DNA from: Limihaloglobus sulfuriphilus
GTDB lineage: Bacteria; Planctomycetota; Phycisphaerae; Sedimentisphaerales; Sedimentisphaeraceae
Direction: 5' to 3'
Length of the DNA: 64,000 bases
Assembly (NCBI RefSeq): GCF_001999965.1
Contig: NZ_CP019646.1
Location: 2,356,001 to 2,420,000, forward strand
A program made the position numbers and the translations under genes. The notes beneath the pieces are model-generated. The model saw only the letters and a list, made by a program, of their open reading frames with translations. It was not told where the DNA came from and did no database searches. Positions 15,515-47,423 of the stretch are shown one piece after another. Position 1 is the stretch's first letter. Each line of letters opens with the position of its first letter.

Positions 15515-16167
15515 TTAATACCCGCTGCCAAGTGTAATCTTTCTCTGTTTGCCGTCTCTTGGTATTTGTTGTATTTTCTTGTAAAAATCTTCACCTTTAA
15601 ACAATCCGGCGTGGGCTATTACCGGTTTGTCCTGTGATATAAACTCGCCTGCAAGAAAGGATCCATATGATCGCCATGCTCATGGCTTACAAAAAGAATA
15701 TCGCAATACTCTACCATCTCTTTTGCCAAAGCATTCACTATGCTTTTGTTCTCTTGGCTCCTAAGGCTCTCAGGCAGCCGAATTAAGTCGAACGCCGCCG
15801 TGACATCAGCAGATTTGACAATATAAGACATGTTATACACATTCCACACCGCAACTCCATTTTCAACTTCTGTTGATTTGAGTTTATCAAGGGATGTTTT
15901 GTATCTGTTCAAAAATAAATCTTTTAACGGCTTCGCATGAGGATGCGGATAGTGAGTTAAAGTATCGGCCAGAAAAAGAGCAGCTTTTCTTTGCTCACTT
16001 TGATAACCGGGCTTATGGTCTTCAAAATATGAACACAGAAACTTGCACATTACAGCATTCTGGTCTTGATAATAATCTAAATCCGCCTCGCTTAATGTTG
16101 CCTGCCGGGCAAACACATTCATGGCAAACAAAAACAGGATAGCGTTATAGATGGTTATCGAATTCAT
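15515..16167 (-). pseudogene. Frameshifted secreted metallo-beta-lactamase-fold hydrolase
   Basis: The intact 5' frame (15619-16167) encodes a signal peptide (to about residue 22), a helical region and the start of an MBL domain with the zinc motif SHEHGDHMD, then stops abruptly after DPFLQASLYHRTNR. Directly after the motif another frame continues family-like sequence (EFISQDKPVIAHAGLF and about 30 more codons) to a stop at 15515. Loss of one base near 15645-15656 explains this. The rest is still short for an UlaG-like MBL protein, so the 3' end may also be lost. It is downstream of two sulfatase genes in the same direction. A sequencing error would give the same picture. Confidence 0.6.
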
Positions 16168-16232: not shown

Positions 16233-17627
16233 TCATTTGGGATACGGCCTTAAATCTTCAGGTCTCCATTTATTCCTCTCATGAAAATCTTTTTCCCATT
16301 GAGCAAACTCCATTTCCAGTTCCCTTACTAATTCGGGATTTTTTGAAGCTAAATTGTGTTGTTCTTCAAGATCAGATTTGAGATTATACAACTGAACTTT
16401 TGAGCCCTGAACAAGCAATTTCCAATCACCTTTCCTAACGGCCTTCTGCCCTCTATAACTCCAGAATAGCGTGCGCCGGCCCAGGGGTTTGTTTTCTAAT
16501 AACAAGGGCAGTAGGTTTACCCCGTCAATTTTGATTTCATCCGGTAATTGCAGATTTGCAAGTTTCAGCAGAGTGGGAAATAAATCCATAGACATAGAAG
16601 TTTCGTCTGATGTAACATCAGCCTTAATTTTACCCTGCCAACAGGCAATAGCCGGAACTCGATGCCCACCCTCTGAAAGCCTTGATTTGCAGCCCCTCAA
16701 GGGGCCGTTTGAACCTGATATCCAGGAGGCAGCGCCGTTATCTGAACAAAAGAAAACAAACGTGTTCTTTGCCAAACCGAGCTTTTCTAATACAGTGTTT
16801 ATCCTCCCGATACCTTCATCCATGATTTCAATCATCTCTTTATAGATTTGATCCGTATTTATTTCAGCCGTATGCTCCGGCGGTTTGCCTTTTGTGCGTT
16901 GAGCTTTTGAACTGCGTATCTGCAAAGGATAATGGGGAGCCTCATGTGAGACAAGGACACAGAACGGCTTGTCCGCATTTTCCTTAATAAAACTGACAGT
17001 GTCTTCGGTTATCAAATCGGTTGAATAACCTTCTCTTACAACCTTGCTGCCATTGTGCCGCCAGTCTTCATTGCCTTCCTGGTCGATGTGTGAAATATAA
17101 TCAATATTTCCGCTTAAATACCCCTTAAACTCATCAAAACCCTGTTTAGTTGGATTCAAGTCATCTGGTATTCCAAGGTGCCATTTACCAAACAATGCGG
17201 TCTTGTATCCATTATCCTTGAGCAGCTCAGCGAAGGTCGTTTCCCCTAAAGGAAGTCCCTGGTACGGCGGGGTCCCCCAGGGTGAAACACAGATATCAAT
17301 GCCGGTACGCTGCTGATAACGCCCCGTAAGAAGCGAGGCGCGGGTAGGGCTGCATACCGCACCATTTGAATGATAATCTGTAAACTTCATGCCGCGTTTG
17401 GCCATTGCATCAAGATTTGGTGTCCTGATTTTTTTATTTCCATAACAGCCTATATCTCCATAGCCCAAATCATCTGCCATGATAAGAACAATATTGGGCT
17501 TATCATGATTCACTCTATCAAGCCGGTCTGATCTGGAAAAATTGAGGCAACCCTCAAAGGCTGTTGCGGAAGTAAGTAAACCAATACTTCCTAAGAAACT
17601 GCGCCGAGTCATATGTACTGTCTTCAT
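16233..17627 (-). CDS. S1-family (formylglycine) sulfatase, Tat-exported
   Basis: A 464-residue arylsulfatase-type enzyme acting outside the cytoplasm on sulfate esters of a glycan. The Tat motif TRRSFLG and a following cysteine (AFEGC) suggest export, possibly as a lipoprotein. The formylglycine site is C92 in VCSPTRASLLTGRYQQR, with metal aspartates in MADDLGYGD. The open frame reaches 17699, but the ATG at 17627 has AGGA upstream and starts directly before the Tat signal, so it is preferred. Cysteine-type sulfatases need an anaerobic maturase (anSME), which is not in the window. It lies 34 bp after a paralogous sulfatase gene in the same operon. Confidence 0.92.
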   Translation of the reverse strand: MKTVHMTRRSFLGSIGLLTSATAFEGCLNFSRSDRLDRVNHDKPNIVLIMADDLGYGDIGCYGNKKIRTPNLDAMAKRGMKFTDYHSNGAVCSPTRASLLTGRYQQRTGIDICVSPWGTPPYQGLPLGETTFAELLKDNGYKTALFGKWHLGIPDDLNPTKQGFDEFKGYLSGNIDYISHIDQEGNEDWRHNGSKVVREGYSTDLITEDTVSFIKENADKPFCVLVSHEAPHYPLQIRSSKAQRTKGKPPEHTAEINTDQIYKEMIEIMDEGIGRINTVLEKLGLAKNTFVFFCSDNGAASWISGSNGPLRGCKSRLSEGGHRVPAIACWQGKIKADVTSDETSMSMDLFPTLLKLANLQLPDEIKIDGVNLLPLLLENKPLGRRTLFWSYRGQKAVRKGDWKLLVQGSKVQLYNLKSDLEEQHNLASKNPELVRELEMEFAQWEKDFHERNKWRPEDLRPYPK

Positions 17628-17661
17628 TTTGGATCCTATACGCATCAGGGAGAATAAAAAC

Positions 17662-19092
17662 TCAAGAGTCTGAGTCCACGTCTTTTTCCCATTGAACAAG
17701 CTCTTCGAGCAGGCTATTCACGATTTCTGGTTCCATAGCTGAGATGTCTTTACTTTCACTAATGTCGTGATCAAGGTTGTAAAGGCTGACATAGTCACCT
17801 CTTTCATTTTGGAGCTTATTTGTATCCGGATTTTTTCTGATACCTTTTATCAATTTCCAGGGCCCTTTTCGTACTGCCTTTTGATCTGCATATCTCCAGA
17901 AAAGTGTTCTTGGGGCCAGATGCTTATTCTCAAACAGCACAGGTGTAAGATCGGCTCCATCGAATTCCAATCCGCCGGAAGGTTTAATACCGGTTATTGA
18001 CAACAATGTTGGAAAGACATCCATTGACATCGCTGTCTGATGAGTGAGACCAGGTTTAATTTTGCCGGGCCAGCATGCAATAGCCGGAACTCTATGTCCG
18101 CCTTCAAAGACCTCTCCTTTGATCCCGCCCAGAGCTCCATTAGAGCCTGCTCCTGCAAGTGGCCAGGCGCCGTTATCTGAACAGAAGAAAATAAAAGTGT
18201 TTTTCTCTATATTTAATTGTCTGAGTTTGGCCGATATCTCCCCTATATAAGAATCCAGCTCTTCAATCATTTCTTTGATTGCCATGTCGGTATCCTGGCG
18301 ATCTCCTAATGGCTTGGGTACATTGCCAGGCCGCGGCTCGGGCTTCTCTTGACGCTGATAGCCGTCATAATCGCCGGGTGACTGATAGGGATAGTGAGGT
18401 ATCTCGTAAGGCAGGTACAAAAAGAAAGGATCGTCTTTATGCTGTTCAATGAATTTAAGACTGTAATCCGTCAGCAGCCGGTCTGTGTAACCTTCTTCCC
18501 TGACATTTTCACAGCCATGCCACCAGTCATGCCTGCCTTCCTGGCTTACATGTGAAAAGAAATCTATGTTTCCAGACTTGAAGCCGATAAATTTCTCAAA
18601 ACCCCGTTTGGTGGGATTAAAGTGAGCTGATGAGCCAAGATGCCATTTACCAAACATTGCCGTCGAGTAATGTTTATTTAACACATCAGCGATGGTTGTT
18701 TCTGACTCCATTAGTCCATCGTTTCGCTGATAATTATCCGGATTCGCAGGAAATTCAGGAACTACCCGCTCAATGCCGCAGCGCTGCTGGTACCGCCCCG
18801 TCAGCAAAGCAGCTCTGGTCGGGCTGCAGACCACACCGTTAGAGTGATAATCAGTAAAACTCACGCCGCGTGCGGCAAGATTATCAATATTGGGAGTTTT
18901 GATATAATCATTGCCGTAGCAGCTCAGGTCTCCATAACCCAGATCATCTGCCATAATTAAAATTATATTGGGCCTTTTGGTTCCTGCTCCTCTATTTCCC
19001 GTATTTCTTCGGATGCAGCCGGAAATATACAGATTCAGTGTGCCGGCCCCTATAACCTTCAAAAATGTCCGCCTATTGTGTTTATTATGCAT
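17662..19092 (-). CDS. S1-family (formylglycine) sulfatase, Tat-exported
   Basis: A 476-residue paralogue of the next sulfatase. The N-terminus has NRRTFLKVIG (Tat) and LYISGC, which could be a lipobox. The active-site cysteine is C89 in VCSPTRAALLTGRYQQR, and metal ligands are in MADDLGYGD. The two enzymes share the order of all blocks (DYHSNG, FGKWHLG, FFCSDNGA) but differ in the substrate-facing loops, so they probably remove sulfate from different positions of one glycan. It follows the GH42-like gene by 18 bp, in an apparent operon. Confidence 0.92.
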   Translation of the reverse strand: MHNKHNRRTFLKVIGAGTLNLYISGCIRRNTGNRGAGTKRPNIILIMADDLGYGDLSCYGNDYIKTPNIDNLAARGVSFTDYHSNGVVCSPTRAALLTGRYQQRCGIERVVPEFPANPDNYQRNDGLMESETTIADVLNKHYSTAMFGKWHLGSSAHFNPTKRGFEKFIGFKSGNIDFFSHVSQEGRHDWWHGCENVREEGYTDRLLTDYSLKFIEQHKDDPFFLYLPYEIPHYPYQSPGDYDGYQRQEKPEPRPGNVPKPLGDRQDTDMAIKEMIEELDSYIGEISAKLRQLNIEKNTFIFFCSDNGAWPLAGAGSNGALGGIKGEVFEGGHRVPAIACWPGKIKPGLTHQTAMSMDVFPTLLSITGIKPSGGLEFDGADLTPVLFENKHLAPRTLFWRYADQKAVRKGPWKLIKGIRKNPDTNKLQNERGDYVSLYNLDHDISESKDISAMEPEIVNSLLEELVQWEKDVDSDS

Positions 19093-19110: not shown

Positions 19111-22100
19111 TTATCGTTTAAGTGTGACAATACATACGTCACTGAAAGATGGAATTTCTATAACACCTTTCTCAGAAGATTCTACTGCTATTTTCTGGTC
19201 AAAATCTAACCATATTTCAGCCTTTGTATTTTCATTAATATAGTCAGAAGCAACCTTTACATCACGGGTCCTTCCCTCATGCTGATTAAGCAGGAAGAGC
19301 AGCTGAGATGAAGGGTTTTGATAACAGGCAAAATGAACCGTATTCTTCGAAGAAATCAGTTCCGCGGCAAAACCCGGCTGAGTCTCATCAACAACTTTCT
19401 TTAGCCCCAAACGAATTGCTCGGCGTAAAGACTTAGCATCTCTGGAATTATCGAGACGCATCAGCGGCGGCGGAGTATTGCCGGCCTCTGTCCAGCGTCT
19501 CACCGGCCCCATATACTTTTCTCCAAGCATACTGTTTATCCATGTAACCCGGCCGTTACCTGCCTTAATTGAATATGGCTGTTCAAGGCTTGATATTACG
19601 TTTTCAAAACTTTTATCCGGATTTATCAAAAGCTGTTCAAGTTTCTCATAAGTAAGGTTTTCTCGCGGAACCCGTCCGCTGCCGATAATATGGCCGCCGC
19701 TGGATACAAATTGACAAAGCAAATTATTGGCCTTTTCGCCAAGCACCGGGCAGTCCGGCATAAATATTACCTTATAATCTCGTATCAGCTCGAATCCTGT
19801 TTTTTCCAACTCATACGGAGTGAAAACATCAGGCAGATATCCACTGTCAAGCACCAGATGGTAGGCCCCGGCCATATCCACCCAGTCTGATTTATAGCCG
19901 CCCTTATCTGCAAGTGAATATGACATTACCGGCAGGAGAAAAGCCGCATCTGTCTCAAGCGTATAACCCTTGAGCAGCTCAACAGAAGTCTTTACATCCT
20001 GTGTAAACTTATCAAGCTGCCAGTCCGTAAAAGTTGAAAAGTTGTAATCAGGCACTACCGGATCAAACCAGCTGTAGCAGAACATGCCATCCATACCATG
20101 CTGAACGCCGGCCATAACAGCCCTGTATGCCGGGCCAAAACCGGAATAAAGCCCGTAAGGGAAATCCACCATATCAGTAGCATATATATCCTTGCCGTAT
20201 TTTCGGGCAATATCGATTGGGCATGTAGTACAGGTAACATCATCCCCGGCAAAGGAGAGCTGAATGCCGTTAACATCGATCGCCGGCGAGTTGGCCAGGC
20301 TTATATCAAGCCTCTGCCAGTACGTATTGAAGTCACCCAGATAATGTGTACTGGATGCGGCTCCAATATATGAAACGACTTTACGGTCGGGATCGCGATC
20401 TTTTATGTGTTCAGCGCATATATTCAGCCAGTGAGCCATCTGCTCATAGCAGAAGGTGATCCAATATTCCCATGCCAGTGAAGTATTTATATACGGCATA
20501 TCCAATTGCGGAACTTCGACTACAAACATGGCGTTTTCAGGATCCTGTGTGCATGAAACTATCTTACCTGTTCCAATATTATTCTCAGCAGTGAATTCCC
20601 ATAACCCTGAGGCTCTCTGCATCGTGTTAACACCGTCAGCCAGCAGCTGCCTGCCTGCCAAATCAGACACCGAGACATCCTTAAACTCAGCTCTGCCCGG
20701 GGCGTTTATTAACAGCTCAAGTGTGGCTTTTACCGCATTGGCAGGAGTACGACAGGTCTCGTTAATCATGTCCCATTGGCCATCCTCTGCCCAAGTCCAG
20801 TAAAACTGGCCGTCCAGTACATATTTTATTTCTGCTCCGGCTTCATTATAACACTTTAGCCTCACTGCACAAAGCCCTTCTGGAATACCGAACTGTCTCA
20901 CCTTAACCTGTATTTTATAGTCCCTGCCTCCCTGAATCTCAATCGGTTCGGAACTCCAGCAGGCTTTAATCGATTTCGTATCAAAACCGGCTGTGCGTAT
21001 GCCGGTATAATCGTAACCGAGCAGTGTCCCTCTTGGCGGATCAACCTGATCCCAGCTTTCAAAATCCGCTCCCCATTTTCGGTTCAACATTTCAAGAGAA
21101 CCGTATTTTTCCTTGAGCCGGTCTTTAAAGATAGAAATGCCAAGCGGATTATAATCTACCGTCGCAGGCATAAACCATTCAGCGCCATTTAAGTATCCGG
21201 GAATCCGATGGTCATGGTCATTGACTTTTATCCAGTCAATCAGCTGATCAATGTAGTTGAAGACCGACTCACGGAAAATGGGTGAATACAGAGAAGACCA
21301 TCTGCTTCTACTCCCGTCGGGCTGTTTGAATTCCCAGATTTTGCCGTCGGAGCCCGTCAAAAATTGACCCGCTTCAGTTGTCTTCTCAGCCCTCCAGCCG
21401 CCAGAATGAAAAACAGATGTATCAAGTATCGGATAGGCCTGGCGACCGGACTCATAGACTCCTTTGAGCCAGTCAACGAATGCCTCGGTATCGACAACCA
21501 GATTGTCACGGTCAAGCATCCTCCACAGGAAGATATTGCTGAGTTCTGCATTTACGCAGAGCGCATCGAGCCGATCTTCGAAGGCCTTGTGGTTTGGGTG
21601 GATAACAAAACCGACGGGCTTGCCTGTTCTCAGCGGTTTACCCTGAAGTTTAGGAGTAATGACGCCCACTCCGTTCTCGTTATAGATGTAATTACTCTCA
21701 CCGGCAGGAACTGCCTTTACTAAAGTGCTCTTTCCATCCCACTCTATATCTATTTTGTAGTCTTTGCTGCCGCCATGGGCAACAAGTTTACGCTCTCTGA
21801 TAAGCCGGCGGATCTCTGTACCCATGTCCCTGCCTCTAAGCTCCAGAACACCATTTGCAATGTCGATTTTCCCCTGCTTGCCAACCCCTATTGAGCCGCA
21901 GGTTATTTTACCGCCTTCAAGAAACGCCCGGGCATTTGAGCTTTCGTGCTGGCCAACAACAAACCACTGGCTTACGTGTATTTCTCCGCTTTTGATCTTG
22001 AGCAGGCCTTGCCCCCTGTCACCAACACAAAGATGTTTTCCAACTGCTAAAGACCCCGAATCAAGTGTTAGAATACCGCTGAAACCGGAATCATTAGAAA

Positions 22101-22410
22101 TTGTAAAATTTTCTGCGACATTGAGACTGCCGCCCTTCAACATCAGCTCGTATCCATTTTTTGAGCCGAGGGTTATACTCTCTGCTGCTGCATTTGTCTC
22201 GTTTGCAATCGTAAGTCTATCTTCAGTGCTGTCCCGGCTGGGAATAACCGCCGCTGTAATCTTATCCGGCAGCATATTTGACTGGCCGTCCCACCAGCCG
22301 CTTTTGTCTGACCAGTATGGACTATCGCCTTTAAAACGAACCAAATCAGATGCCTGGGCATTGATTATAAAAATAAACGAGAAAACCATAAATTTAACAA
22401 ATATTCGCAT
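19111..22410 (-). CDS. Secreted GH42-like glycosidase with N-terminal beta-solenoid
   Basis: A 1099-residue multidomain protein. Residues 1-20 are a signal peptide. Residues 21-235 are short GG-S-L/V repeats that form a beta-solenoid, homologous to the N-termini of the proteins at 25553 and 26419. From about 265 a GH42-type barrel begins; GAEW with E411 lies where GH42 has its acid/base Asn-Glu, followed by the GH42-like KEKYGSLEMLNRKWG. A beta-rich insert (about 470-590, CBM-like) interrupts the barrel, which resumes with WEYWITFCYEQMAHWL. A GH42-like flavodoxin-fold domain (about 830-930) and a beta domain end the protein. I cannot place a nucleophile glutamate; that region reads IYATDMVDFP. 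The call is family-level, so activity is uncertain. Confidence 0.7.
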   Translation of the reverse strand: MRIFVKFMVFSFIFIINAQASDLVRFKGDSPYWSDKSGWWDGQSNMLPDKITAAVIPSRDSTEDRLTIANETNAAAESITLGSKNGYELMLKGGSLNVAENFTISNDSGFSGILTLDSGSLAVGKHLCVGDRGQGLLKIKSGEIHVSQWFVVGQHESSNARAFLEGGKITCGSIGVGKQGKIDIANGVLELRGRDMGTEIRRLIRERKLVAHGGSKDYKIDIEWDGKSTLVKAVPAGESNYIYNENGVGVITPKLQGKPLRTGKPVGFVIHPNHKAFEDRLDALCVNAELSNIFLWRMLDRDNLVVDTEAFVDWLKGVYESGRQAYPILDTSVFHSGGWRAEKTTEAGQFLTGSDGKIWEFKQPDGSRSRWSSLYSPIFRESVFNYIDQLIDWIKVNDHDHRIPGYLNGAEWFMPATVDYNPLGISIFKDRLKEKYGSLEMLNRKWGADFESWDQVDPPRGTLLGYDYTGIRTAGFDTKSIKACWSSEPIEIQGGRDYKIQVKVRQFGIPEGLCAVRLKCYNEAGAEIKYVLDGQFYWTWAEDGQWDMINETCRTPANAVKATLELLINAPGRAEFKDVSVSDLAGRQLLADGVNTMQRASGLWEFTAENNIGTGKIVSCTQDPENAMFVVEVPQLDMPYINTSLAWEYWITFCYEQMAHWLNICAEHIKDRDPDRKVVSYIGAASSTHYLGDFNTYWQRLDISLANSPAIDVNGIQLSFAGDDVTCTTCPIDIARKYGKDIYATDMVDFPYGLYSGFGPAYRAVMAGVQHGMDGMFCYSWFDPVVPDYNFSTFTDWQLDKFTQDVKTSVELLKGYTLETDAAFLLPVMSYSLADKGGYKSDWVDMAGAYHLVLDSGYLPDVFTPYELEKTGFELIRDYKVIFMPDCPVLGEKANNLLCQFVSSGGHIIGSGRVPRENLTYEKLEQLLINPDKSFENVISSLEQPYSIKAGNGRVTWINSMLGEKYMGPVRRWTEAGNTPPPLMRLDNSRDAKSLRRAIRLGLKKVVDETQPGFAAELISSKNTVHFACYQNPSSQLLFLLNQHEGRTRDVKVASDYINENTKAEIWLDFDQKIAVESSEKGVIEIPSFSDVCIVTLKR

Positions 22411-22446
22411 GGAAACCCTTTCTTAAAGTGTCAGACTGTATTGATT

Positions 22447-25400
22447 TTACCCCTTGTTTACCCAAACCGGTGAAGCCCATGCAACCTGTCCATTCTGCTG
22501 GATGATTCGCATGTAATAATAGCTTTTCCGGGAAAACTCTCTGTCTTCAAATTCAAATTTATAATTTAATAGCCCTTTTAACTCGCCGGCGGCTTTATGG
22601 AATACGATCTTGTCATTTCGGAACACCACTAATTCCTTTACCTGGTCTGCGGCACTGAATTGACCGGTAATAACAGGCGAGGTTTCAGTAATAATTTCAG
22701 AACCCATAAAAGAATCGTTGACTGCGAAATCCAGAATTATTTTATCACCCGTTGTTGCATAGCAACGACGTTTTAAAAGGGCCTCAACAATTGCTTCAGA
22801 ACTGACATCCGAACCTTCCACATAAACACATGCCAGCCCATCACCCATTCCATTATGATCGCCGCTGGCGACAAAACCAAATTTATAGCCGCGTTTTAAA
22901 GCATGCCTTACGCTTTTATCTCCCAGGCTTGTCAAATTTGTTGTCTCAAGGGGACAGCCAGGGTATTCACTTGATCCTCTGCATTGGTATATCTCCAACG
23001 CAGATTGATAGTGTTCATCATGATAGTCCCAATCCATCGGGTGATGTTTATCTGTAATATGATGGGGAATAGTTACCGCTCTAACCTTCTTATGCCGCAT
23101 CAGCTCCCACAGTTTATCCGGCCGGTTGCTTCTGGGATTTTCGCGGCTTTCATAGATATTATTAACGTCATTATCTACAAACTTCAAAGCCTCTTTTTCA
23201 TTTGCAAAAATTATATTTCTATGCCCGTTGCCCGGTACAGTTTTATCCGGCAATCCAGCAGTAAGGGTCCATTCAAAACCATTGAGTCCTATAAAAAACG
23301 GTTCTGAAGTGTAAAACTGAGCTGTTCTGAAGGTCTTGCGGCAATTGACCTCATGCATATCATAACCATGGTCTGTAATCGCCACAAAATCATAGCCCTC
23401 GACATCAATACCAAAACGGTAATTCTCATCGAGACTGCCGTCACTGCAGTTTGCCCAGCATCTTGAGATATCACTATGTTCGTGAAGATTACCCATTAGC
23501 AAAGTATATACTTTGCCGTTATATGAGACTCTATGCCGGTTCTCCGGTTTTATTTTCCCCCTGTAATGACACGGTTTGGCAGTTGAATTTGATTTTTTGA
23601 AATCTCTAAACTTTACTGAACTTATTCTGGCGGCATCTTTTTTGTTCAGACGCAGCCTGGAAACATTAACAGTGCTGAGTTTTTCGTATAAAAGTGTTGT
23701 GTAGCAAGCTGAGAGTATGTTATCGCTTTGCCAACAGACCCAGACATGTTCATCATCGCATTTACAGACAGATGTTACATCCATTCGTCCCGCGGCAATC
23801 TCTCCCAGAACATTTACGCTTTGAGCCCAGCCGTCATTCGTTAGAACTGACGCACTGATCCGCCATTGTCTGCGATCACTGTATGACTGCCGTGAAAAAA
23901 GCCACATCTTATTATCATCAGTGAGATAGATTTGCGGATGACGGTTATTTGCCATTGACATCGGACGGTTTCCGCTGAAATGGCCGCCGCTGGAAGCTAT
24001 TTTTTGCAGTTTGCCGTCAATGAGACAGCCGCATAAACATTCAACATTCTCAAAGATACATTCGTCGCGTTTGTTCTCACTCACCTGCTCCCAGGCTGCC
24101 CAGATACGATTGTCACCGTCACAGGACAAAGCTGGATTGCCGTTAAGATAACTGCGGCTGGAATTTCTGTAAACCAGTTTTTCATTATTAACTATCGCTG
24201 TCTTTCCAGAAAAATCGCAACTTATAATATAAATATTTTTTTCACCATTTTCAGCCTTTGCGTAAGCTGCCCATACAATACCGTTTCCATCCTCTACAAC
24301 CGCGGGGCTGTAGCAGTTTCTCTGACTGTCACTTACGGTTACGGGCGGACTCCATTCGTTATCCTCCGGTTTGTATTTGCTTAGCTGAATGTAGAATCTG
24401 CCGCCGCTGTACTGCTCCCACGCGGCAACAAACCCACCATCGCTGCATGCCTGAAGAACGGGATTCTTTACCTTGCCCCCGCAGATTTTTTTTGCTGCTG
24501 AAAATTGGCTCCCGTTATACACCTTTGCCTTAAGAAGCCACTGCTCATCTTTGATCTCCACCCAAACCACAGCAGGGCTGTGCTTACCTTTACAGGCTAT
24601 TCTCGGGGTTTCATATTTCCCGTCAAAGAAATTGAGAGATTTGCTCTGGGACCATTTGCCGTCTTTAAATTCATTGTATTTTATTGATTCACGGCTGTCA
24701 TCTTTTCGCTCCAGCCAAAGACACCATGCCCTGCCGTCATCGCTGGAGGCCAGCGTCGGTGACTCAGCAAACTTTTCCTGATCTGAGAGGGGCTTACAGT
24801 CAACCAGCTCAGCTGCCGTGACATTCTGCCTCCGTGGTTCATCCATATGCTTCTCCGCAATGACATCCAGAGAAACATTCTGCATGTTTCGATTTAGTTG
24901 TACCGAAAACTCATCCGGATCACATCTGGGTACAATATTGATAACTACATTATCATTTCGAGTAAGCCGGATATTTCTCAGGAAAGCACAATACCTGCCG
25001 GCAGAAGCATCTTTACAGCTCATTGCTGCCAGGAATCTTTTAATTTTTTTGCCTGCAAATTTGTCAAGCCTGAAACTGCGATGATACCATTTATCAACAG
25101 CATTATTTCCTGTATCAGCCATCGGATGGGCAGAAAAATCATTCTGATCCGGAATCTTTGAATCCCGTAATATTGAACCGTCCTCACACTCAAAATCTAC
25201 CACACCAGAGCGTATAGAAGAGAAAGATGGAACAAAAACATCATATTCCAGAACATCCCCATTCTGAATGTGGAAATCGTATTGAAAGAAGTTTAAATAG
25301 ATAGATGCAGGCTCGCCGGTGTGTTCAGCTTTCGCATGAAATCGCAATACCATAGCATCTTTTTCTAACCCTGCAAAGACCTGATTGAGTAAAAGGTCGT

Positions 25401-25470
25401 ATCCAAGAGCCGCACTTCCGCCGGCTGTTAGAATCTTGATAAATGAACGTCGGTTTAGTGTGTTATTCAT
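22447..25470 (-). CDS. Tat-exported protein with beta-propeller and PHP/DUF3604-like metal hydrolase domain
   Basis: A 1007-residue protein with Tat signal NRRSFIKILTAGG. A jelly-roll-like domain spans about 40-185. Then come repeats of about 45-60 residues (about 215-600) with recurrent blocks such as GRAWCLWLE and GIVWAAYAKAE that look like propeller blades. A PHP-type domain (about 655-950) carries metal motifs: GNLHEHSDISRCW, AITDHGYDMHE, TIPHHITDKHHP and ASGDHNGMGDG. A beta domain closes it. PHP domains hydrolyse phosphoesters; DUF3604 members occur in sulfatase-rich glycan loci. Its place between sulfatase/GH genes and a PEP-CTERM gene suggests extracellular glycan work, but the reaction is unknown. 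Confidence 0.7.
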   Translation of the reverse strand: MNNTLNRRSFIKILTAGGSAALGYDLLLNQVFAGLEKDAMVLRFHAKAEHTGEPASIYLNFFQYDFHIQNGDVLEYDVFVPSFSSIRSGVVDFECEDGSILRDSKIPDQNDFSAHPMADTGNNAVDKWYHRSFRLDKFAGKKIKRFLAAMSCKDASAGRYCAFLRNIRLTRNDNVVINIVPRCDPDEFSVQLNRNMQNVSLDVIAEKHMDEPRRQNVTAAELVDCKPLSDQEKFAESPTLASSDDGRAWCLWLERKDDSRESIKYNEFKDGKWSQSKSLNFFDGKYETPRIACKGKHSPAVVWVEIKDEQWLLKAKVYNGSQFSAAKKICGGKVKNPVLQACSDGGFVAAWEQYSGGRFYIQLSKYKPEDNEWSPPVTVSDSQRNCYSPAVVEDGNGIVWAAYAKAENGEKNIYIISCDFSGKTAIVNNEKLVYRNSSRSYLNGNPALSCDGDNRIWAAWEQVSENKRDECIFENVECLCGCLIDGKLQKIASSGGHFSGNRPMSMANNRHPQIYLTDDNKMWLFSRQSYSDRRQWRISASVLTNDGWAQSVNVLGEIAAGRMDVTSVCKCDDEHVWVCWQSDNILSACYTTLLYEKLSTVNVSRLRLNKKDAARISSVKFRDFKKSNSTAKPCHYRGKIKPENRHRVSYNGKVYTLLMGNLHEHSDISRCWANCSDGSLDENYRFGIDVEGYDFVAITDHGYDMHEVNCRKTFRTAQFYTSEPFFIGLNGFEWTLTAGLPDKTVPGNGHRNIIFANEKEALKFVDNDVNNIYESRENPRSNRPDKLWELMRHKKVRAVTIPHHITDKHHPMDWDYHDEHYQSALEIYQCRGSSEYPGCPLETTNLTSLGDKSVRHALKRGYKFGFVASGDHNGMGDGLACVYVEGSDVSSEAIVEALLKRRCYATTGDKIILDFAVNDSFMGSEIITETSPVITGQFSAADQVKELVVFRNDKIVFHKAAGELKGLLNYKFEFEDREFSRKSYYYMRIIQQNGQVAWASPVWVNKG

Positions 25471-25482
25471 AAGATAAAAATC

Positions 25483-25508
25483 AGTGCCGGAATTTTACTT
25501 CCGGCACT
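25483..25508 (-). terminator. Terminator after the PEP-CTERM gene
   Basis: A perfect 10-bp stem (AGTGCCGGAA / TTCCGGCACT) with a 6-nt loop, followed on the minus strand by GATTTTTATC. It lies 45 bp past the stop of the PEP-CTERM gene and only 13 bp before the start codon of the PHP gene, so transcription of the latter must pass it or start very close by. Confidence 0.7.
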
Positions 25509-25552
25509 ATGGATTTATTTTATATAAATGATTTGACTAATACTTTAATTTT

Positions 25553-26341
25553 CTATTTACGTTTTATGAGCAATGATAATGAACCTATGCCCAGCATAAC
25601 CAAAACCGTCGGCTCAGGAACTGCTGTCATAGTTGTCTTGGTTCCGTCAAATGTATATTCAAATGAGGCATTTGGGTCACCATTATAAGCAATTATATCT
25701 CCAGCAGCAGCCATTGCCTGTAAACCTGACCGTTTATCCGCCGTCTGATTGATAACCAGTGTACCGCCTGCCAGATTGAGCACGCCTTCGCCGCCGAGCC
25801 AGCTACAACCAAGCTCACCGCCGTTTACATTTACAACACTGCCTGAGGAAGAAGCGAATTGACCTATTACAAGCCAGCCGCCTACATTGAGTGAACCGCC
25901 GTAAATGTTTGTCGTTGCGGCACCGTACCAGCCGCCGTAGTAATTCCCGCCGACATTCATCACTCCGCTGTTTAGATTGATTGTGCCTGTACTGTCATTT
26001 GCCTGTATAGCCATTTTCACAGTTGTTGTAACATCAAGCTGCCCGCCGTCAATAAACAAATAACCGTTGGCATCCTTCCTGCCGGTCAGCCCCACTTCAA
26101 GACTGTCTGCCAAAGCAGTTACACCACTATTAACATGAGGACCTGTGCCCGGCCACCAGTTACCATCACGTATAAGCACTCTATCTGACTGTGTCGGGGC
26201 GAGATTGGCTGTGCCATTCCACCAGTTGGAGTCAGTATCCCAGCTTTTATCAGCCTCACTGCCGCTCCAGCCAACATCAAGGGCCTGTGCAGTGAACGTA
26301 GTAACCGCAACTAATACTAATAATAAAACAGCATTTTTCAT
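25553..26341 (-). CDS. PEP-CTERM beta-solenoid surface protein
   Basis: A 262-residue secreted protein: signal peptide (1-20), then a beta-solenoid of GG-x-L-x-V repeats (GGQLDV, SGVMNVGGN, GGSLNVGGW, GGELGC, GGTLVI). The C-terminal tag is AVPEPTVLVMLGIGSLSLLIKRK, read as PEP motif, hydrophobic segment and basic end. Exosortase should cut and anchor it; none is in the window. The solenoid matches the N-terminal domains of its two large neighbours, so this is the stand-alone version of the shared module. No catalytic motif is visible. Confidence 0.85.
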   Translation of the reverse strand: MKNAVLLLVLVAVTTFTAQALDVGWSGSEADKSWDTDSNWWNGTANLAPTQSDRVLIRDGNWWPGTGPHVNSGVTALADSLEVGLTGRKDANGYLFIDGGQLDVTTTVKMAIQANDSTGTINLNSGVMNVGGNYYGGWYGAATTNIYGGSLNVGGWLVIGQFASSSGSVVNVNGGELGCSWLGGEGVLNLAGGTLVINQTADKRSGLQAMAAAGDIIAYNGDPNASFEYTFDGTKTTMTAVPEPTVLVMLGIGSLSLLIKRK

Positions 26342-26379
26342 AACAATCGTCCTTTCGTAATTATACCACTAATTTTAAA

Positions 26380-26403
26380 TTTCTGACTGCCATCAGCCAG
26401 AAA
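26380..26403 (-). terminator. Possible terminator after the LamG/dockerin-like gene
   Basis: TTTCTGGCTG / CAGTCAGAAA can pair on the minus strand (10 bp including one G-U) around a 4-nt loop. The pairing is better on the minus than on the plus strand, in line with the direction of the gene ending at 26419. The T-run that follows is weak. Confidence 0.4.
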
Positions 26404-26418
26404 TCAGTTTTTCTAATA

Positions 26419-29400
26419 TCAATTGAGCCAGTTCTGCGCAATCATCATGAAATCTTCAACACCAACGGAACAGTCACCATTGAGGTCGCCCGAAGCGATA
26501 ATACCGGTAACCTGGCATACATCTGGTTCATTAACCGTGAATGTATCGTTGATACTGCGTTCGAAGAAGCCTTCAAAACCTCCCATATAAACCATATATC
26601 CTATATGCTTGCTAACTGCTCTGGCAACGGGAACCCATTGTCCGTCTTCCTTGTGGTGTTCGTCCCAGCGAACAAGTCCAAGGTAAGTATCACCTGAACG
26701 GCCATAGAAATAACGCTCACGGACATTCTGGTTATCACGCAGCTGATTAAGCACAATAACCTCATCCAGGTTACGCATAACATCATCCACAGGCCAGCCG
26801 TCACAACCGCCGTCAAACTCTACATCGAACGGACCGTATCTTTCAAGAAAGGCATATCTGCTGTCGATGTCCTGCCATTTCAAACCGGTACCGTTGTTGA
26901 GATCATCAAAACTGTTGCATATATAAGTATCATACGGCGCCGTGCTTACCCATTCAGTGTCTGCGTTAACAGGCGCAAAAACCTTTCCAAGGCCCCAATC
27001 GAGTTCACCTCCGTCATCATTTACAAATAAACGAAAACGATCAATCCTCGAATCAAATACCGGCTGGGTAAGGGGTTCAATTTCATCTACACGCTGACCA
27101 AAAGATTCAGTATGCAGACGGATTAAGCCGTCTGCTCCGATAGTAAATATTTCTCCGTGAAAATTCTGAGTCCATGTATCTTTTCGCCAGTAAGCACGGT
27201 TCCATGCCATATTCACTTTACTGCTGAAAAGTCCGTGGGTTTGGGTATTGGCAGTCCATTCGGCTCCATTCCAGACTTCGCTGTGAAAGGCCAGAACCCT
27301 GTCTTGAGGAAGTGTTGAATTCATAAACAACAGCATATCCTCACTGCCGTCAGAGGCAATTTCATACCCGCCCTTATCAAGCCAGGCGTTGTCGTTTTCA
27401 AGCCACTGGCCGGCGGTTTCTGAAGCGTCTAAAAGATTAACCATACCGTCCTGATTGACATCTCCCGGGTTATACCAGCCGTAACGCCCGTCCTCGGGTG
27501 AGCTGTAGGCACGCGGAACGCTTGAGATGCGAACCTCACCTATAGAACCGTCAAAATTAAATATCGTCCAGTATGGGCTGTTGCCTATATAAACCTTACC
27601 GGTGTCGTTTGGAGGAAGCGGACGGAGTGCTTTTTCAAGCATCCCCTCGAGCTGTCCATTGACATAGACCTCAAGGTGTGTTTCATAGTTCCAACCGGAC
27701 GCTCCTTGTTTTAAAGCTCTTTTGACGCCGGCAATGTGATACCATCTGTCAAGCTCAAGCTCTGTAGTGCCCACTGCTTCACGCCATACCCAGTCTGTGC
27801 CGCAGTATGACATAACAGCTTTCCTGTCGGGATTTACAAAAAGCTGCCAGTGGTATCCCTGCTCACCATTCTGAGCAATAACATATTTGTTATAATTCTG
27901 ATTGCCGGCTATCGGATAGCTGGCTAACTTTATCCACGCCTCTACACTTATCGCACCTGCGTGAAAACGGCTTTCAAGAAAACTCTGGTCAATTTCCACT
28001 ATTGGCTGATGCTGGCCGCTGCCCGGCTGAGCGGTCTCATCCGCGTCGATGGTGATATAACCCGCCCGCCGGCTGATGCCTTCAGACTGCATAACAGCGA
28101 ATGGAGCCTCAAGCTCGCTTGCTGTACTCTGAGCATAATAGTTTGCCGGATCCGCATCGAAATGCACCAGAAGATCTGTACCCAAAGCCAGACGTGTGTA
28201 AGGAGAAGATGGATCTTCGAGGACAGGCTCAAAATTCTTAGCATAGCCGCAGAATTGGAGCTCATCAACGCATCCGTTAAAATGGTTAGAATCCCCTCTG
28301 TCTTTGCCTATCATAACGTTCTGATCAACCCAGTTTGTATGCCCGGGAAGCTCTGAGAACAGAACTGTCTCACTGTCAAAGACACCGTTGATAAAACTTC
28401 GGCAAACCGCTCTGTGCGGATAATACTCATCGTAATCAGGATCATCTTCATCCATTAGTTCTATACTTCGCGTAAAGGCTATATGGTACCACTGTCCCGG
28501 CGTAAGAAAAGCTGAACTGTTCGCCCTGAAATATTCCCAGCCATCCTGGTATTCGAGATAAGCATGCCCCATGGTGTCAATACCTAACCGCCAGGTTGCA
28601 TACGAATTTTCGCCGTAAACAGCTATTGTCTGGGTTCTTGTTGAATAGATTTCATTTACTTTAACATAACATTCAACTGTCATCTCGCCGTTGAGAAAAA
28701 GCTCTGTCAGCTGTGGAACCAGCATGTAGTCACTCGCTCCATTAAAACTGGCCGCCAGTCCGAAATTATCCATTGAGTCAACAAAAGCTGCTCCATAATT
28801 TTCACCAGAGAGCACTGAAACGCCTTCGGGATTGACACCTGTCACGTCAGAATTGTCAAAATTGAAAAGAGCCCTTACCCCCCTGTCTGTACCACTGTAC
28901 TGATTAACCGGTGCAGAATAAGTTTGTGTCTCATAAGTTTCAAACGGTCCCTCAGCATAAATATTAACTGCATAGACCCTGTTATCAATACCGTCAAAAC
29001 TCATCTCAAGCTCATAGTCCGGATTACCCCCATAGGCAACAATATCTCCGGCATCTATTTTAGCCTGAAGATCCGGGCGTTTATCAGCAGACTGGGCAAT
29101 AATCAGCGTCCCGCCGGCAATGTTTATTGTCCCCTGACCGCCAATCCAGTTAGCTTCGAGTTCACCGCCATAGATATTCACATTGCACTGATCGTTAAAT
29201 TGTCCGGCTGTCAGCCAACCGTCGATTGAAAGCAGACCGCCATAAACATTAACCTCTGAGCTGCCGTGCCAGCCGGACAAGCTGCCGCCAACGCTCATCG
29301 TTCCGCTGTTTACCGTAAGTGTGCCGCTGCAAAGATCTTCTACTCCAATTTTAACTTCACCGGCGACATCCAGCTCGCCGCCGTCTATTACCAGATATCC

Positions 29401-29685
29401 ATTGCCGTCTTTTCTGGTCAATCCAATTTCAAGACTGGCTGCATGCGCACTGGTTCCGGCATATACAGACGGGCCGGTATCCGGATACCAGTTGCCGTCG
29501 CGAATAATCACCCTGTCTGATGCAGTTGGTATGGAATTGCCTGTTCCGTTCCACCAAGCGGCAGTATTCTCCCAGCTGAAATTATCAGGTTCTGTCTCAA
29601 CAGGACCAGACCAACTCACATCTAATGCCGCGGTACTATAAATAAGAAATGTATAGACTGCTAAAATAACCAAACATTTTTTCAT
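26419..29685 (-). CDS. Secreted beta-solenoid / two-LamG / dockerin-like protein
   Basis: A 1088-residue surface protein. Signal peptide 1-20; a beta-solenoid (about 21-245) homologous to the PEP-CTERM neighbour; LamG-type lectin domains at about 260-490 (MTVECYVKVNE, WYHIAFTR) and 510-730 (ISVEAWIKLAS, WYHIAGVKR). A calcium-binding dockerin-like repeat GDVNQDGMVNLLDASETAGQ is at about 735. An unrecognised domain of roughly 300 residues follows, and a second repeat GDLNGDCSVGVEDFMMIAQN ends the protein. The two repeats that normally sit side by side are split here. The LamG domains suggest glycan binding. It is preceded by a pseudopilin gene in the same direction. Confidence 0.8.
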   Translation of the reverse strand: MKKCLVILAVYTFLIYSTAALDVSWSGPVETEPDNFSWENTAAWWNGTGNSIPTASDRVIIRDGNWYPDTGPSVYAGTSAHAASLEIGLTRKDGNGYLVIDGGELDVAGEVKIGVEDLCSGTLTVNSGTMSVGGSLSGWHGSSEVNVYGGLLSIDGWLTAGQFNDQCNVNIYGGELEANWIGGQGTINIAGGTLIIAQSADKRPDLQAKIDAGDIVAYGGNPDYELEMSFDGIDNRVYAVNIYAEGPFETYETQTYSAPVNQYSGTDRGVRALFNFDNSDVTGVNPEGVSVLSGENYGAAFVDSMDNFGLAASFNGASDYMLVPQLTELFLNGEMTVECYVKVNEIYSTRTQTIAVYGENSYATWRLGIDTMGHAYLEYQDGWEYFRANSSAFLTPGQWYHIAFTRSIELMDEDDPDYDEYYPHRAVCRSFINGVFDSETVLFSELPGHTNWVDQNVMIGKDRGDSNHFNGCVDELQFCGYAKNFEPVLEDPSSPYTRLALGTDLLVHFDADPANYYAQSTASELEAPFAVMQSEGISRRAGYITIDADETAQPGSGQHQPIVEIDQSFLESRFHAGAISVEAWIKLASYPIAGNQNYNKYVIAQNGEQGYHWQLFVNPDRKAVMSYCGTDWVWREAVGTTELELDRWYHIAGVKRALKQGASGWNYETHLEVYVNGQLEGMLEKALRPLPPNDTGKVYIGNSPYWTIFNFDGSIGEVRISSVPRAYSSPEDGRYGWYNPGDVNQDGMVNLLDASETAGQWLENDNAWLDKGGYEIASDGSEDMLLFMNSTLPQDRVLAFHSEVWNGAEWTANTQTHGLFSSKVNMAWNRAYWRKDTWTQNFHGEIFTIGADGLIRLHTESFGQRVDEIEPLTQPVFDSRIDRFRLFVNDDGGELDWGLGKVFAPVNADTEWVSTAPYDTYICNSFDDLNNGTGLKWQDIDSRYAFLERYGPFDVEFDGGCDGWPVDDVMRNLDEVIVLNQLRDNQNVRERYFYGRSGDTYLGLVRWDEHHKEDGQWVPVARAVSKHIGYMVYMGGFEGFFERSINDTFTVNEPDVCQVTGIIASGDLNGDCSVGVEDFMMIAQNWLN

Positions 29686-29739: not shown

Positions 29740-30624
29740 TTAATGCCAGCCGATCCGGGTACCTTCCACCCACTGAACACTGCCATCTGCGAATGTTGCT
29801 ACCGTTCCCCCGTATCTTCCTTTCTTATGGCTGCCGTAATTGACTATACCCCCGCCGCTTGTTGACCAGCTGTCCCATTGTCCGGCATTGCAGAAGAATG
29901 CGATATTCTCACTGGCGCTTCGGCTGCCGGTATGCTGGGCCAGGTTTGGAGACCATCTTATCCTTTTAAGTTTTAGGTATTCAGCGTTGCCTGAGCGGCT
30001 GCCCCAGCCCCTGGCAAGATCACTGTCGTCAAACCATCGGTAGGAACCATATTTAGCTGTGCCATGAGGTTCCCCGTATGGATGGTTTTTCGTATATTCC
30101 CAATCCTGTTTAAGCCACCAGAGGGAAGGTTCGTAACTTTCCCGCTTTCCTTCATAAACAAGCGACTTGAAAGTATGAGAACCTGCACTGCCTTTAAGTG
30201 TTATACTGCCGATTTCTTTGATTCCGGTAGTGTTTGTCGTTTCACTGGCTTTATTGCGGACAAAAGGACAGGCATAATAATCTTTGATGTGAGAGTTGAA
30301 ATATTCATCAAGCTGCGCCGGCCCCCAGAAGCCTTCCGGATCCAGGCTGTCACCTAACTGCACGTGGTCACGAAGTGCCAATGATAAAAATCTCGACTTT
30401 GCGGGAACTTGCGAATGCTGATTTAATAGAATGGGCACGTAATCCGAGTTTTCCGCCTTGAAAACCATTAGAACGGTTCCTATCTGCTTACTATTGGCCA
30501 TGTCAATAACCAATTTCGCCTGGTTCCGTGCTTTGCTAAGCGCCGGCATAAGTATTGCCATCAGCAGCGCGATTATAGAAATCACAACAAGAAGCTCTAT
30601 TAGCGTAAAACCTTTTTTTCGCAT
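29740..30624 (-). CDS. GspG-like pseudopilin with C-terminal DGSVxW motif
   Basis: A 294-residue class III prepilin: MRKKG followed by FTLIELLVVISIIALLMAIL, so prepilin peptidase would cut after the glycine and the helix would insert or assemble. The C-terminal globular part ends with TFADGSVQWVEGT, the mark of the very large DUF1559-type pseudopilin families of Planctomycetota. AAGGA precedes the ATG. It sits between the GntR-type regulator and the LamG/dockerin-like gene, so it is probably expressed with the glycan genes. A role in surface display or substrate capture is inference. Confidence 0.85.
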   Translation of the reverse strand: MRKKGFTLIELLVVISIIALLMAILMPALSKARNQAKLVIDMANSKQIGTVLMVFKAENSDYVPILLNQHSQVPAKSRFLSLALRDHVQLGDSLDPEGFWGPAQLDEYFNSHIKDYYACPFVRNKASETTNTTGIKEIGSITLKGSAGSHTFKSLVYEGKRESYEPSLWWLKQDWEYTKNHPYGEPHGTAKYGSYRWFDDSDLARGWGSRSGNAEYLKLKRIRWSPNLAQHTGSRSASENIAFFCNAGQWDSWSTSGGGIVNYGSHKKGRYGGTVATFADGSVQWVEGTRIGWH

Positions 30625-30637
30625 TTTTTTCCTTTTG

Positions 30638-31765
30638 TTAAATACCTTTACTGCTCTCTCTTATGCACAGCCTGGCGGGAAGGACACGCTGTATCCGCCC
30701 CGTCATCTCACCCGTACATATTGTCTCCATAAATTTCGCGGCCTCATAACCGACAAGCTCGTTGGACTGATTAACGCTGCTCAGCGGCACCGTAAGCCTT
30801 TCACAAAACGCACTGTCACCAAAGCCTACAACAAACACATCTTTGCCGATCTGCAGGCCCTTCCGCTCTGCTGCTTTGTAAACTCCCATAGCTACAAGGT
30901 CTGCGCAGCAAAGTATGCTGTACTTATCCTGGGGATTTTCCGTAAACAGCTTCTCGGCAATCTGTGTGAAATGCCTGAGCTGTTCTTCATCTGAAAGCTC
31001 AGAAAGATCGCTGCCGCATATTTCGTAAACATCATAGGTATATTTACTGCAATCAAGAATCCCGTATTCCCCCATCGCCGTACGCCAGCCTGAATACCTG
31101 TTATAAGCCGATGAGGGGGATCTTGTTAAACCTATGTAATATACCGGTGACTTCTGCACCTCAAACAAATGTACTGCCGCTTCATGAGCGCCGGCTACAT
31201 TGTCCATCGAAACTGAACTTGCATTAACCCCTGGCAGATTCCTGTCAATAAGAACGACGTTTACTCCGCCTTCTATATGCTTATTGATAATATCCTCACA
31301 ACCCTTTCCCTCAAAAGGCATTACAATAACACCTTTAATATTTTCCGCCAGATGATTCATTGCCTCTATGTAGGCATCGTACGACCTGTGGGCATCAACT
31401 ACCAGACATTCTATGTCACTTTCAGCCAGATACTGATTGATTCCCCTGGTAAAAGCCAAGGACATTGAATCGTGGTCCCAGCGAATATAGGAGATCACCA
31501 ACCTTTTCGTGCCGCCTTGAATAACTATGGGCCCGTGAGCGCGTTTGCCGTCAATCTTGATCAGATTTCGATTACCAAGCTCCTCGAGGGCAAACATGAC
31601 AGTCCGGTAATCAACATCAAAATCCTTTACCATCTGTGAAACTGACGGCAGACGCTGACCTTCAACATACACTCCTGACATTATGCTGTTTGAAAGATAC
31701 TGCGATATCTGCTGATACAGCGGCTTAGCCTTCCCTTTACGCCTATCTAACTGAATAACACTCAC
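30638..31765 (-). CDS. GntR-type regulator with LacI-like sugar-binding domain
   Basis: A 375-residue hybrid regulator, the architecture of AraR. Residues 1-80 are a GntR wHTH (PLYQQISQYLSNSIMSGVY, RLPSVSQMVKDFDVDYRTV). From about 90 a periplasmic-binding-protein-like domain follows, with DRNLPGVNASSVSMDN and VVGFGDSAFCERLTVPLSSV as in LacI proteins. It probably senses a sugar released by the locus and represses the minus arm until induced. It has its own promoter and lies 13 bp upstream of the pseudopilin gene, likely co-transcribed. Confidence 0.9.
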   Translation of the reverse strand: MSVIQLDRRKGKAKPLYQQISQYLSNSIMSGVYVEGQRLPSVSQMVKDFDVDYRTVMFALEELGNRNLIKIDGKRAHGPIVIQGGTKRLVISYIRWDHDSMSLAFTRGINQYLAESDIECLVVDAHRSYDAYIEAMNHLAENIKGVIVMPFEGKGCEDIINKHIEGGVNVVLIDRNLPGVNASSVSMDNVAGAHEAAVHLFEVQKSPVYYIGLTRSPSSAYNRYSGWRTAMGEYGILDCSKYTYDVYEICGSDLSELSDEEQLRHFTQIAEKLFTENPQDKYSILCCADLVAMGVYKAAERKGLQIGKDVFVVGFGDSAFCERLTVPLSSVNQSNELVGYEAAKFMETICTGEMTGRIQRVLPARLCIRESSKGI

Positions 31766-37894: not shown

Positions 37895-38707
37895 ATGATT
37901 TTAAAAAGAAAAAAAGCGTTTACTCTTATAGAGCTGCTTGTAGTTATATCGATAATAGCTCTGTTGATGGCGATTATCATGCCGGCGCTGAATAAGGCGC
38001 GGGCCCAGGCACGAAAGGTTGTCTGCGGTTCTAATTTCAGGCAGCTGGGCAGTGTGTATCATATGTATGCCAATGATCACAGGCAATGGATACCGCGGTT
38101 TGTGCCCAAGTCGCAGCAGGACAAGACGTTTACGCTCGGCAAAGAGGTATCAAATGTTTTGCCGTATGCTCTTTCTGATCCAATGTATCAGCTTCTTCGC
38201 AACAGCTACAAGCTCAAGCCGGAATTTCTTGTCTGTCCGACAAAGATAAAGTCGAGAGGAACCGATGTTACCTATTTCCGCAAAGACGGCGAGATTGAGC
38301 TTGGAGATCCGGAAGGCGGATACTGGATGCCTTATCGGTGGATTGGAATTGCCAGGCTTAACGGCCTTGTAAATATGACAAACACGATTCCCAAAACAGT
38401 AGAGGAGTCAGCGGCCAGGATAGATGATCCGTCCTGGAAACTGCTGGCGGCAGATGAGAACGTTGTGTGGAATATGAATCTTGAGTTCCACCGCACACGC
38501 CTTGCACACAGAGGAAGAGGCGGTCTGCCCGAAGGTGCCAACCGTCTGCACGTTGACGGTTCAGTTAACTGGGTAAACACATCTATGATGGCGGCGGACG
38601 ATAAGCCGCTGGATACAGCCGACGGTTACCCGACCGGCGTAGATCCCTCTAAGTCTCCCCCGAGGTATGACCACAGGGGCGATTATACAAGAATGTACTA
38701 CTGGTAG
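37895..38707 (+). CDS. GspG-like pseudopilin with C-terminal DGSVxW motif
   Basis: A 270-residue prepilin: basic leader MILKRKKA, then FTLIELLVVISIIALLMAII, nearly the same helix as in the pseudopilin at 29740, and a C-terminal RLHVDGSVNWVNTS. The leader ends in KKA rather than the usual glycine before FTLIE, which may affect cleavage. GGAG precedes the ATG. It lies 17 bp after the LamG/dockerin-like gene. The pairing of a pseudopilin with a LamG/dockerin-like gene is thus found in both arms of the locus. Confidence 0.85.
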   Translation: MILKRKKAFTLIELLVVISIIALLMAIIMPALNKARAQARKVVCGSNFRQLGSVYHMYANDHRQWIPRFVPKSQQDKTFTLGKEVSNVLPYALSDPMYQLLRNSYKLKPEFLVCPTKIKSRGTDVTYFRKDGEIELGDPEGGYWMPYRWIGIARLNGLVNMTNTIPKTVEESAARIDDPSWKLLAADENVVWNMNLEFHRTRLAHRGRGGLPEGANRLHVDGSVNWVNTSMMAADDKPLDTADGYPTGVDPSKSPPRYDHRGDYTRMYYW

Positions 38708-45888: not shown

Positions 45889-45904
45889 AGGATAAACAGA
45901 TTTT

Positions 45905-47395: not shown

Positions 47396-47423
47396 ATAAT
47401 TTTAATGTTAAAGATAAAGAGCT

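Follow-up and report, generated by a model that had tools for sequence, protein, structure and literature searches.

Genes and Modular Proteins of the Locus

The window (the whole stretch of 64,000 nucleotides of Limihaloglobus sulfuriphilus DNA analyzed here) contains a run of consecutive genes on the same strand, reading from 31765 to 16233 and separated by gaps of 13–82 bases or overlapping, which likely forms one operon. The order is a GntR-type regulator, a pseudopilin, a module-LamG-dockerin protein, a module-PEP-CTERM protein, a CehA/McbA-like protein, a module-GH42-like protein, and two sulfatases. The three ORFs that carry the module (19111, 25553, and 26419) are all on the minus strand. 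The predicted features are as follows:

30638..31765, minus strand, GntR-type regulator with a LacI-like sensor, first gene of the run (Pfam)
29740..30624, minus strand, type IV pilin-like/pseudopilin protein, immediately upstream of the module genes (N_methyl, 33.7 bits, cut-off 21.2)
26419..29685, minus strand, protein of 1088 aa with the module, two LamG domains, and dockerin-type half repeats (Pfam)
28954..29622, minus strand, solenoid module of the LamG/dockerin protein, residues 22–244 (BLASTP, leave-out profile)
25607..26278, minus strand, solenoid module of the PEP-CTERM protein, residues 22–245 (BLASTP, leave-out profile, AlphaFold2 model)
25556..25624, minus strand, PEP-CTERM sorting tail of the 25553 protein, residues 240–262 (TIGR02595, 17.4 bits, cut-off 16)
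22447..25470, minus strand, CehA/McbA-like metallohydrolase with a beta-propeller-like front and a Tat-type signal (DUF3604, 27.9 bits, over cut-off)
19111..22410, minus strand, protein of 1099 aa with the module and a GH42-like part
21697..22344, minus strand, solenoid module of the GH42-like protein, residues 23–238 (BLASTP, leave-out profile, AlphaFold2 model)
about 21025–21321, Glyco_hydro_42 match in the 19111 protein, residues 364–462 (26.5 bits, cut-off 21)
near residues 863–927 of the 19111 protein, trimerization-domain-like match
17662..19092, minus strand, sulfatase (PF00884, 202 bits)
16233..17699, minus strand, sulfatase (PF00884, 211 bits)

The initial annotation had described one N-terminal unit that stands alone with a PEP-CTERM tag (25553), precedes two LamG domains and dockerin-like repeats (26419), or precedes a GH42-like barrel (19111), and profile matches agree with these architectures. 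The tail of the 25553 protein exceeds the TIGR02595 cut-off, scores slightly under that of Pfam PF07589 (20.5 vs. 20.7 bits), and has a PEP motif, a hydrophobic stretch, and a basic tail. The 26419 protein matches Laminin_G_3 with 106.9 bits in two stretches, the second LamG lying at residues 573–723, and its dockerin-type half repeats (Dockerin_1, 22.6 bits vs. a cut-off of 22.9) are located near residue 740 and at the C-terminus, about 300 residues apart; the intervening ~300 residues (26419–27414) had no Pfam match and no similar ORF among the regions compared. In the 19111 protein, the GH42 profile is over cut-off but covers residues 364–462 only; this protein also has a weak PDB match to a GH42-related beta-1,2-glucosyltransferase (E-value 2e-5) and a candidate acid/base residue within NGAEW. 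The CehA/McbA-like gene (NF038032, 60.1 bits, below the cut-off of 80) sits among the module genes and does not itself encode a module.

Homology of the Three N-Termini

As had been proposed from the sequence, the N-terminal blocks of the three proteins align in the same order, over a shared module of about 215 residues and with BLASTP E-values from 5e-15 to 2e-74. The 25553 and 26419 N-termini are 51–54% identical (51% over 245 aa in BLASTP, E-value 2e-74), and the 19111 N-terminus is only 28% identical to each of them (E-values 5e-15 with 25553 and 3e-20 with 26419), so that the 19111 module is a much more distant copy than the other two. One detail of the proposed consensus stood in part: the D.R motif of the closing block is present in two proteins and absent from the 19111 protein, which has GRDMGTEIRRLI.

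To avoid circularity and the effects of repeat composition, we built a profile from 21 modules taken solely from other genomes. This leave-out profile retrieved the three window modules with E-values of 8e-39, 4e-36, and 9e-30, and the best score among 229 ORFs without the module corresponded to an E-value of 0.02. The closing block, which is not repetitive, links all three proteins when used alone (E-values 8e-5, 1e-8, and 6e-5; best nonmodule ORF 0.65). The N-cap alone was significant in two of the three window proteins, the exception being the 19111 protein, whose N-cap is the weakest element of the homology case. On these tests the three N-termini are homologous, and the presence of a shared module is confirmed. 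The other possibility is that low-complexity Gly/Thr/Val solenoid repeats converged: the sequences are rich in repeats and partially match other solenoids. Such an origin seems very improbable, given the link provided by the nonrepeat closing block, the 51% identity of the 25553/26419 pair, module boundaries that match in position with respect to the signal peptide, and other-genome profile E-values at or below 9e-30 as against 0.02 for the best ORF without the module. We rejected chance or low-complexity resemblance for the family as a whole on the leave-out profile and closing-block tests, the rejection being weaker for the 19111 N-cap.

Predicted Fold of the Module

A beta-solenoid had been suggested for this unit, with differing predicted folds as the outcome that would speak against it. 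Two confident AlphaFold2 models, of the 19111 module (pLDDT 92.4, pTM 0.89) and of the 25553 module (pLDDT 92.0, pTM 0.90), agree with the suggestion and have a common layout, in which an N-terminal strand with a cap is followed by solenoid strands, then by a helix of 9–10 residues and three further strands. The two were compared by secondary structure only and are not fully independent, because the same 13 sequences were used for both. The 26419 module is related to the modeled ones by sequence, through its 51–54% identity to one of them. The solenoid turn is about 24 residues long in the models, and hydrophobic and glycine patterns repeat every 23–25 residues in 88 aligned modules. The module is thus supported, at the level of prediction, as a capped beta-solenoid made of an N-cap, repeats, and a closing helix and strands. 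A Foldseek search of the PDB gave no match at E ≤ 0.001 for either model; the weak matches include many beta-helices (autotransporter Ssp, pertactin, the glutamate synthase GXGXG domain, tapirin, and pectate lyase PelI) and also unrelated folds.

Relationship to Known Systems

Neither Pfam nor NCBIfam contains a model covering the module. The nearest existing model is TIGR04393 (T5SS/PEP-CTERM-associated repeat; NCBIfam, 49 positions), which likewise describes a secreted beta-solenoid repeat on PEP-CTERM proteins. It gave no match for the three window proteins; one repeat-rich paralog in this genome (an ORF of L038) is over the cut-off of 23 bits with 25.2 bits, and two relatives score 15.0 and 11.3 bits, below it. 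TIGR04393 covers repeats only, whereas the module has caps and a fixed length, and the model is silent on partners and on matching within loci. As judged from these comparisons, the module is an undescribed variant of known PEP-CTERM-associated solenoids.

Cthe_2159 (PF14262; PDB 4peu and 4phb), a cellulose and polygalacturonate binder, has parallel beta-helix repeats, as the module does, and is the only PDB sequence match of the module (E-value 3.6e-5 over 84 positions, repeat turns only). Caps are not shared, however, and the fold comparison did not retrieve Cthe_2159. Three of 28 module sequences match PF14262 (best E-value 0.0013), and we rejected membership in this family because the score, 15.4 bits for the 26419 protein, is under the Pfam gathering cut-off of 25.8. 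The C-terminal domain of tapirin (PDB 6n2b and 4wa0), a cellulose-binding adhesin encoded beside pilus genes, is also a surface beta-helix, and its neighboring pilus genes recall the pseudopilin genes near the module; Foldseek E-values of 1.6–5.5 and a TM-score of at most 0.43 give no support for kinship.

Many module proteins end in dockerin-type repeats, as in dockerin–cohesin or cellulosome-like systems. Such systems as described do not include the solenoid module, and this genome has just one scaffold protein, with two cohesins and dockerin repeats; L. sulfuriphilus was rated unlikely to make conventional cellulosomes in a published survey (PMC11557425). The gene run also resembles the CAZyme gene clusters or polysaccharide utilization loci of Planctomycetota, in which regulator, sulfatases, glycoside hydrolases, and surface proteins similarly lie in one run. 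A 2024 survey presents these clusters as lacking any functional characterization; dockerins, cohesins, and pilins are absent from its text, as is any shared surface module (PMC11131199).

Distribution and Partners of the Module

In the genome containing the window (3.87 Mb, one contig), we found 59 module matches in 34 ORFs, with at least eight kinds of partner. According to Pfam, these are LamG, dockerin-type repeats, GH42-like (two), GH5, pectate-lyase-like, GH141-like beta-helix, DUF3604/CehA-McbA, FG-GAP, and Ig-like domains, and about eight of the 34 are small proteins with a C-terminal PEP-CTERM. The mix-and-match use inferred earlier from three neighboring proteins thus extends far past the limits of the window. 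The module unit is always at or near the protein N-terminus. Module ORFs are also clustered: 12 lie less than 4 kb from the previous one, with 1.6 expected and a maximum of 7 in 5,000 random placements. A scan of genome contigs with the three diverse window modules returned no match, and an alignment of 12 diverse modules contained no stretch conserved enough for searching; a closer module set returned eight named loci.

The module is likewise present in other Planctomycetota. At E ≤ 1e-10, it was matched in 61 of 297 genomes sampled from the class, mostly of the same order, and it was found across Sedimentisphaerales. Matches also occurred in 12 of 292 genomes of a phylum sample and in 38 of 146 genomes from the class of a Pontiella metagenome-assembled genome, these last being mostly partial solenoid matches; a plasmid collection yielded none. 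Many loci of relatives repeat the theme of a bare module-PEP-CTERM gene next to the gene of a large module protein, and runs reach up to six module genes.

Module Sequences Follow the Locus

We compared 88 full-length modules from this genome and its relatives. Modules of different proteins within the same locus have a median identity of 39% (n = 74), and those of different loci in the same genome one of 23% (n = 274). Because module pairs are not independent, changes were also counted on a tree: locus labels required 35 changes, whereas shuffled labels required 58 on average and never fewer than 52; with shuffling restricted to single genomes, the count was 54 compared with 64 (minimum 59). 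The label "ends in PEP-CTERM" required 15 changes against 14.9 by chance: the bare companions do not form a separate lineage, and each goes with its neighbor, locus by locus. The module sequence follows the locus rather than the partner domain. The PEP-CTERM and LamG modules of the window are sisters (support 99); its GH42-like module had no resolved place and is nearest by path to this pair. Matching is not universal, since the GH42-like module is just 28–29% identical to its neighbors and the two module genes of L110/L111 share 21% identity with each other and 83–91% with their respective orthologs.

In L121, a locus of a relative from the same family (G002), two module-PEP-CTERM genes are each found beside a large module protein. 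Here, 71 consecutive informative sites (codons 58–190) join each PEP-CTERM gene with its neighbor, and nearly all later sites join the two PEP-CTERM genes together and the two large ones together, with two switches in all (0 of 10,000 permutations). One pair is 97–100% identical over most of the body, and the PEP-CTERM ends of the companions are 95–100% identical. The orthologous loci L091 (G002) and L093 (a second relative, G004) have ortholog-type sites at both ends and neighbor-type sites in the solenoid body; the companion copy in L093 is a mosaic, as part of its body is about 50% like all others. In these two relatives, the sequence of the solenoid body was replaced through gene conversion, with type-specific C-termini kept. 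The PEP-CTERM/LamG pair of the window had no recent conversion tract, its identity being even at 50–70%. New here, and unexpected for a specialist, are the conversion tracts and the within-locus matching, which the initial annotation had not noted.

Predicted Surface Anchoring

The genome encodes one exosortase, of EpsH type (E-value 7e-57, 193 bits), and two cohesins in one ORF (E-values 5e-13 and 4e-10). From the signal peptides, the PEP-CTERM tails with a single exosortase, and the dockerins with a two-cohesin protein, we infer that the module proteins are located at the surface. The two-cohesin protein has dockerin repeats between its cohesins, in agreement with the single Coh2-Doc1-Coh1 protein published for L. 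sulfuriphilus (PMC11557425). Its ORF (C1:1003222-1008960, or L084:7223-12961) encodes about 1,900 aa with dockerin repeats and a start resembling a protease prodomain. About 25 or more dockerin matches in the genome are over cut-off, against 13 dockerin proteins reported for the species.

Possible Function of the Module

Our preferred reading, which we hold tentatively, at somewhat less than even odds, is that the module is a shared, locus-specific surface/glycan adaptor of an anchored companion and its enzymes. The capped, right-handed-type beta-solenoid of about 215 residues would be the common outer-surface adaptor of one glycan-utilization locus, each such locus having its own version. The single exosortase would process the PEP-CTERM tail of the bare copy, which would stay on the cell surface or within the exopolysaccharide, and the copies fused to LamG domains, glycoside hydrolases, and metallohydrolases would bring those activities to the same site. 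Fusions and bare copy may bind the same putative ligand, most likely the polysaccharide of the locus; a glycan is the ligand we infer. The run holds a regulator, two sulfatases, and a GH42-like protein, and the 34 module ORFs have glycan-type partners; module ORFs are adjacent and matched within loci, and conversion in L121 and L091/L093 is confined to the solenoid body. The role in assembly or glycan adherence first envisaged for the module would fit this setting of sulfatases, glycoside hydrolase, and LamG domains, and the interpretation first offered is supported in part. Against the adaptor reading are the lack of a significant Foldseek neighbor in the PDB, the restriction of the Cthe_2159 match to repeat turns and its score under the Pfam cut-off, the unlike modules of some loci, and the window pair without recent conversion; conversion between nearby repeats also need not reflect selection.

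The same patterns could arise if the solenoids bind each other, the anchored bare module being a receptor for proteins with a cognate module, and within-locus matching would then keep partners compatible. Neighboring modules are indeed kept alike whatever the partner domain, the tracts span the solenoid body but spare the type-specific C-terminal part, a receptor would resemble a bare module with an anchor only, and the weak fold matches include self-associating passenger solenoids. We nevertheless regard homotypic assembly as somewhat unlikely, as some loci have unlike modules (L110/L111, 21%; window GH42-like, 29%), and dockerin repeats already give another assembly route. A shared ligand was ranked above self-association because of the glycan-active partners and neighbors and because Cthe_2159 binds polysaccharides. 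In a third view, the module serves as a passive spacer or a leader for export; local duplication would have multiplied this stable stalk, and its within-locus likeness would reflect duplication and neutral conversion. Recombination occurs readily between direct repeats that lie some hundreds of bases from each other, the unit is confined to the N-terminal region, within-locus similarity declines with age, and the window pair has no tract. This reading is unlikely in our view: the caps at both ends and the 24-residue period have been retained across the order and beyond, the PEP-CTERM companion arose separately in many loci, more than simple leftovers predict, and the layout is kept in spite of very diverse sequence between loci. 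The data do not separate a shared ligand from self-association, and a passive stalk with neutral conversion is possible.

Planctomycetota degrade complex and sulfated polysaccharides, and a module common to the anchored and enzymatic proteins of one locus offers a handle on how enzymes and substrate are held at the surface, as well as a means of annotating numerous hypothetical proteins. If the within-locus matching reflects selection, it would represent a simple, testable sorting code for surface enzymes. On a further reading, which we consider quite doubtful, each locus would have a private self-recognizing solenoid, kept alike by conversion and acting as an address tag that sorts enzymes and lectins onto their own companion; these would then avoid the companions of the twenty or so other loci in the genome.

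Pseudopilins and Other Features

In the whole genome, 67 genes of pseudopilin type exceed the Pfam cut-off (69 matches altogether), and their neighbor is frequently a LamG or module protein. In this genome, 13 of 22 module clusters are within 4 kb of a pseudopilin gene, with 3.0 expected and none of 5,000 shifts as high. We rejected the pseudopilin as an obligatory partner, since about 10 of 40 regions of relatives have one near and Sedimentisphaera-like loci of G002 and G004 occur without one. As an analogy only, gold-labeled dextran was observed on pili-like fibers in other planctomycetes (PMC5394234).

Elsewhere in the window, a 182-aa ORF without Pfam match (15619–16167) ends just past a HEHGDH metallo-beta-lactamase-like motif and resembles a gene truncated by a stop codon or frameshift. 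A second pseudopilin (37895–38707) precedes a LamG protein (38759–40549). On the plus strand, a LacI-type regulator at 35838 leads a second run (43471–50345) with BNR/LamG proteins and a GH20 enzyme and without the module, which is probably another glycan locus.
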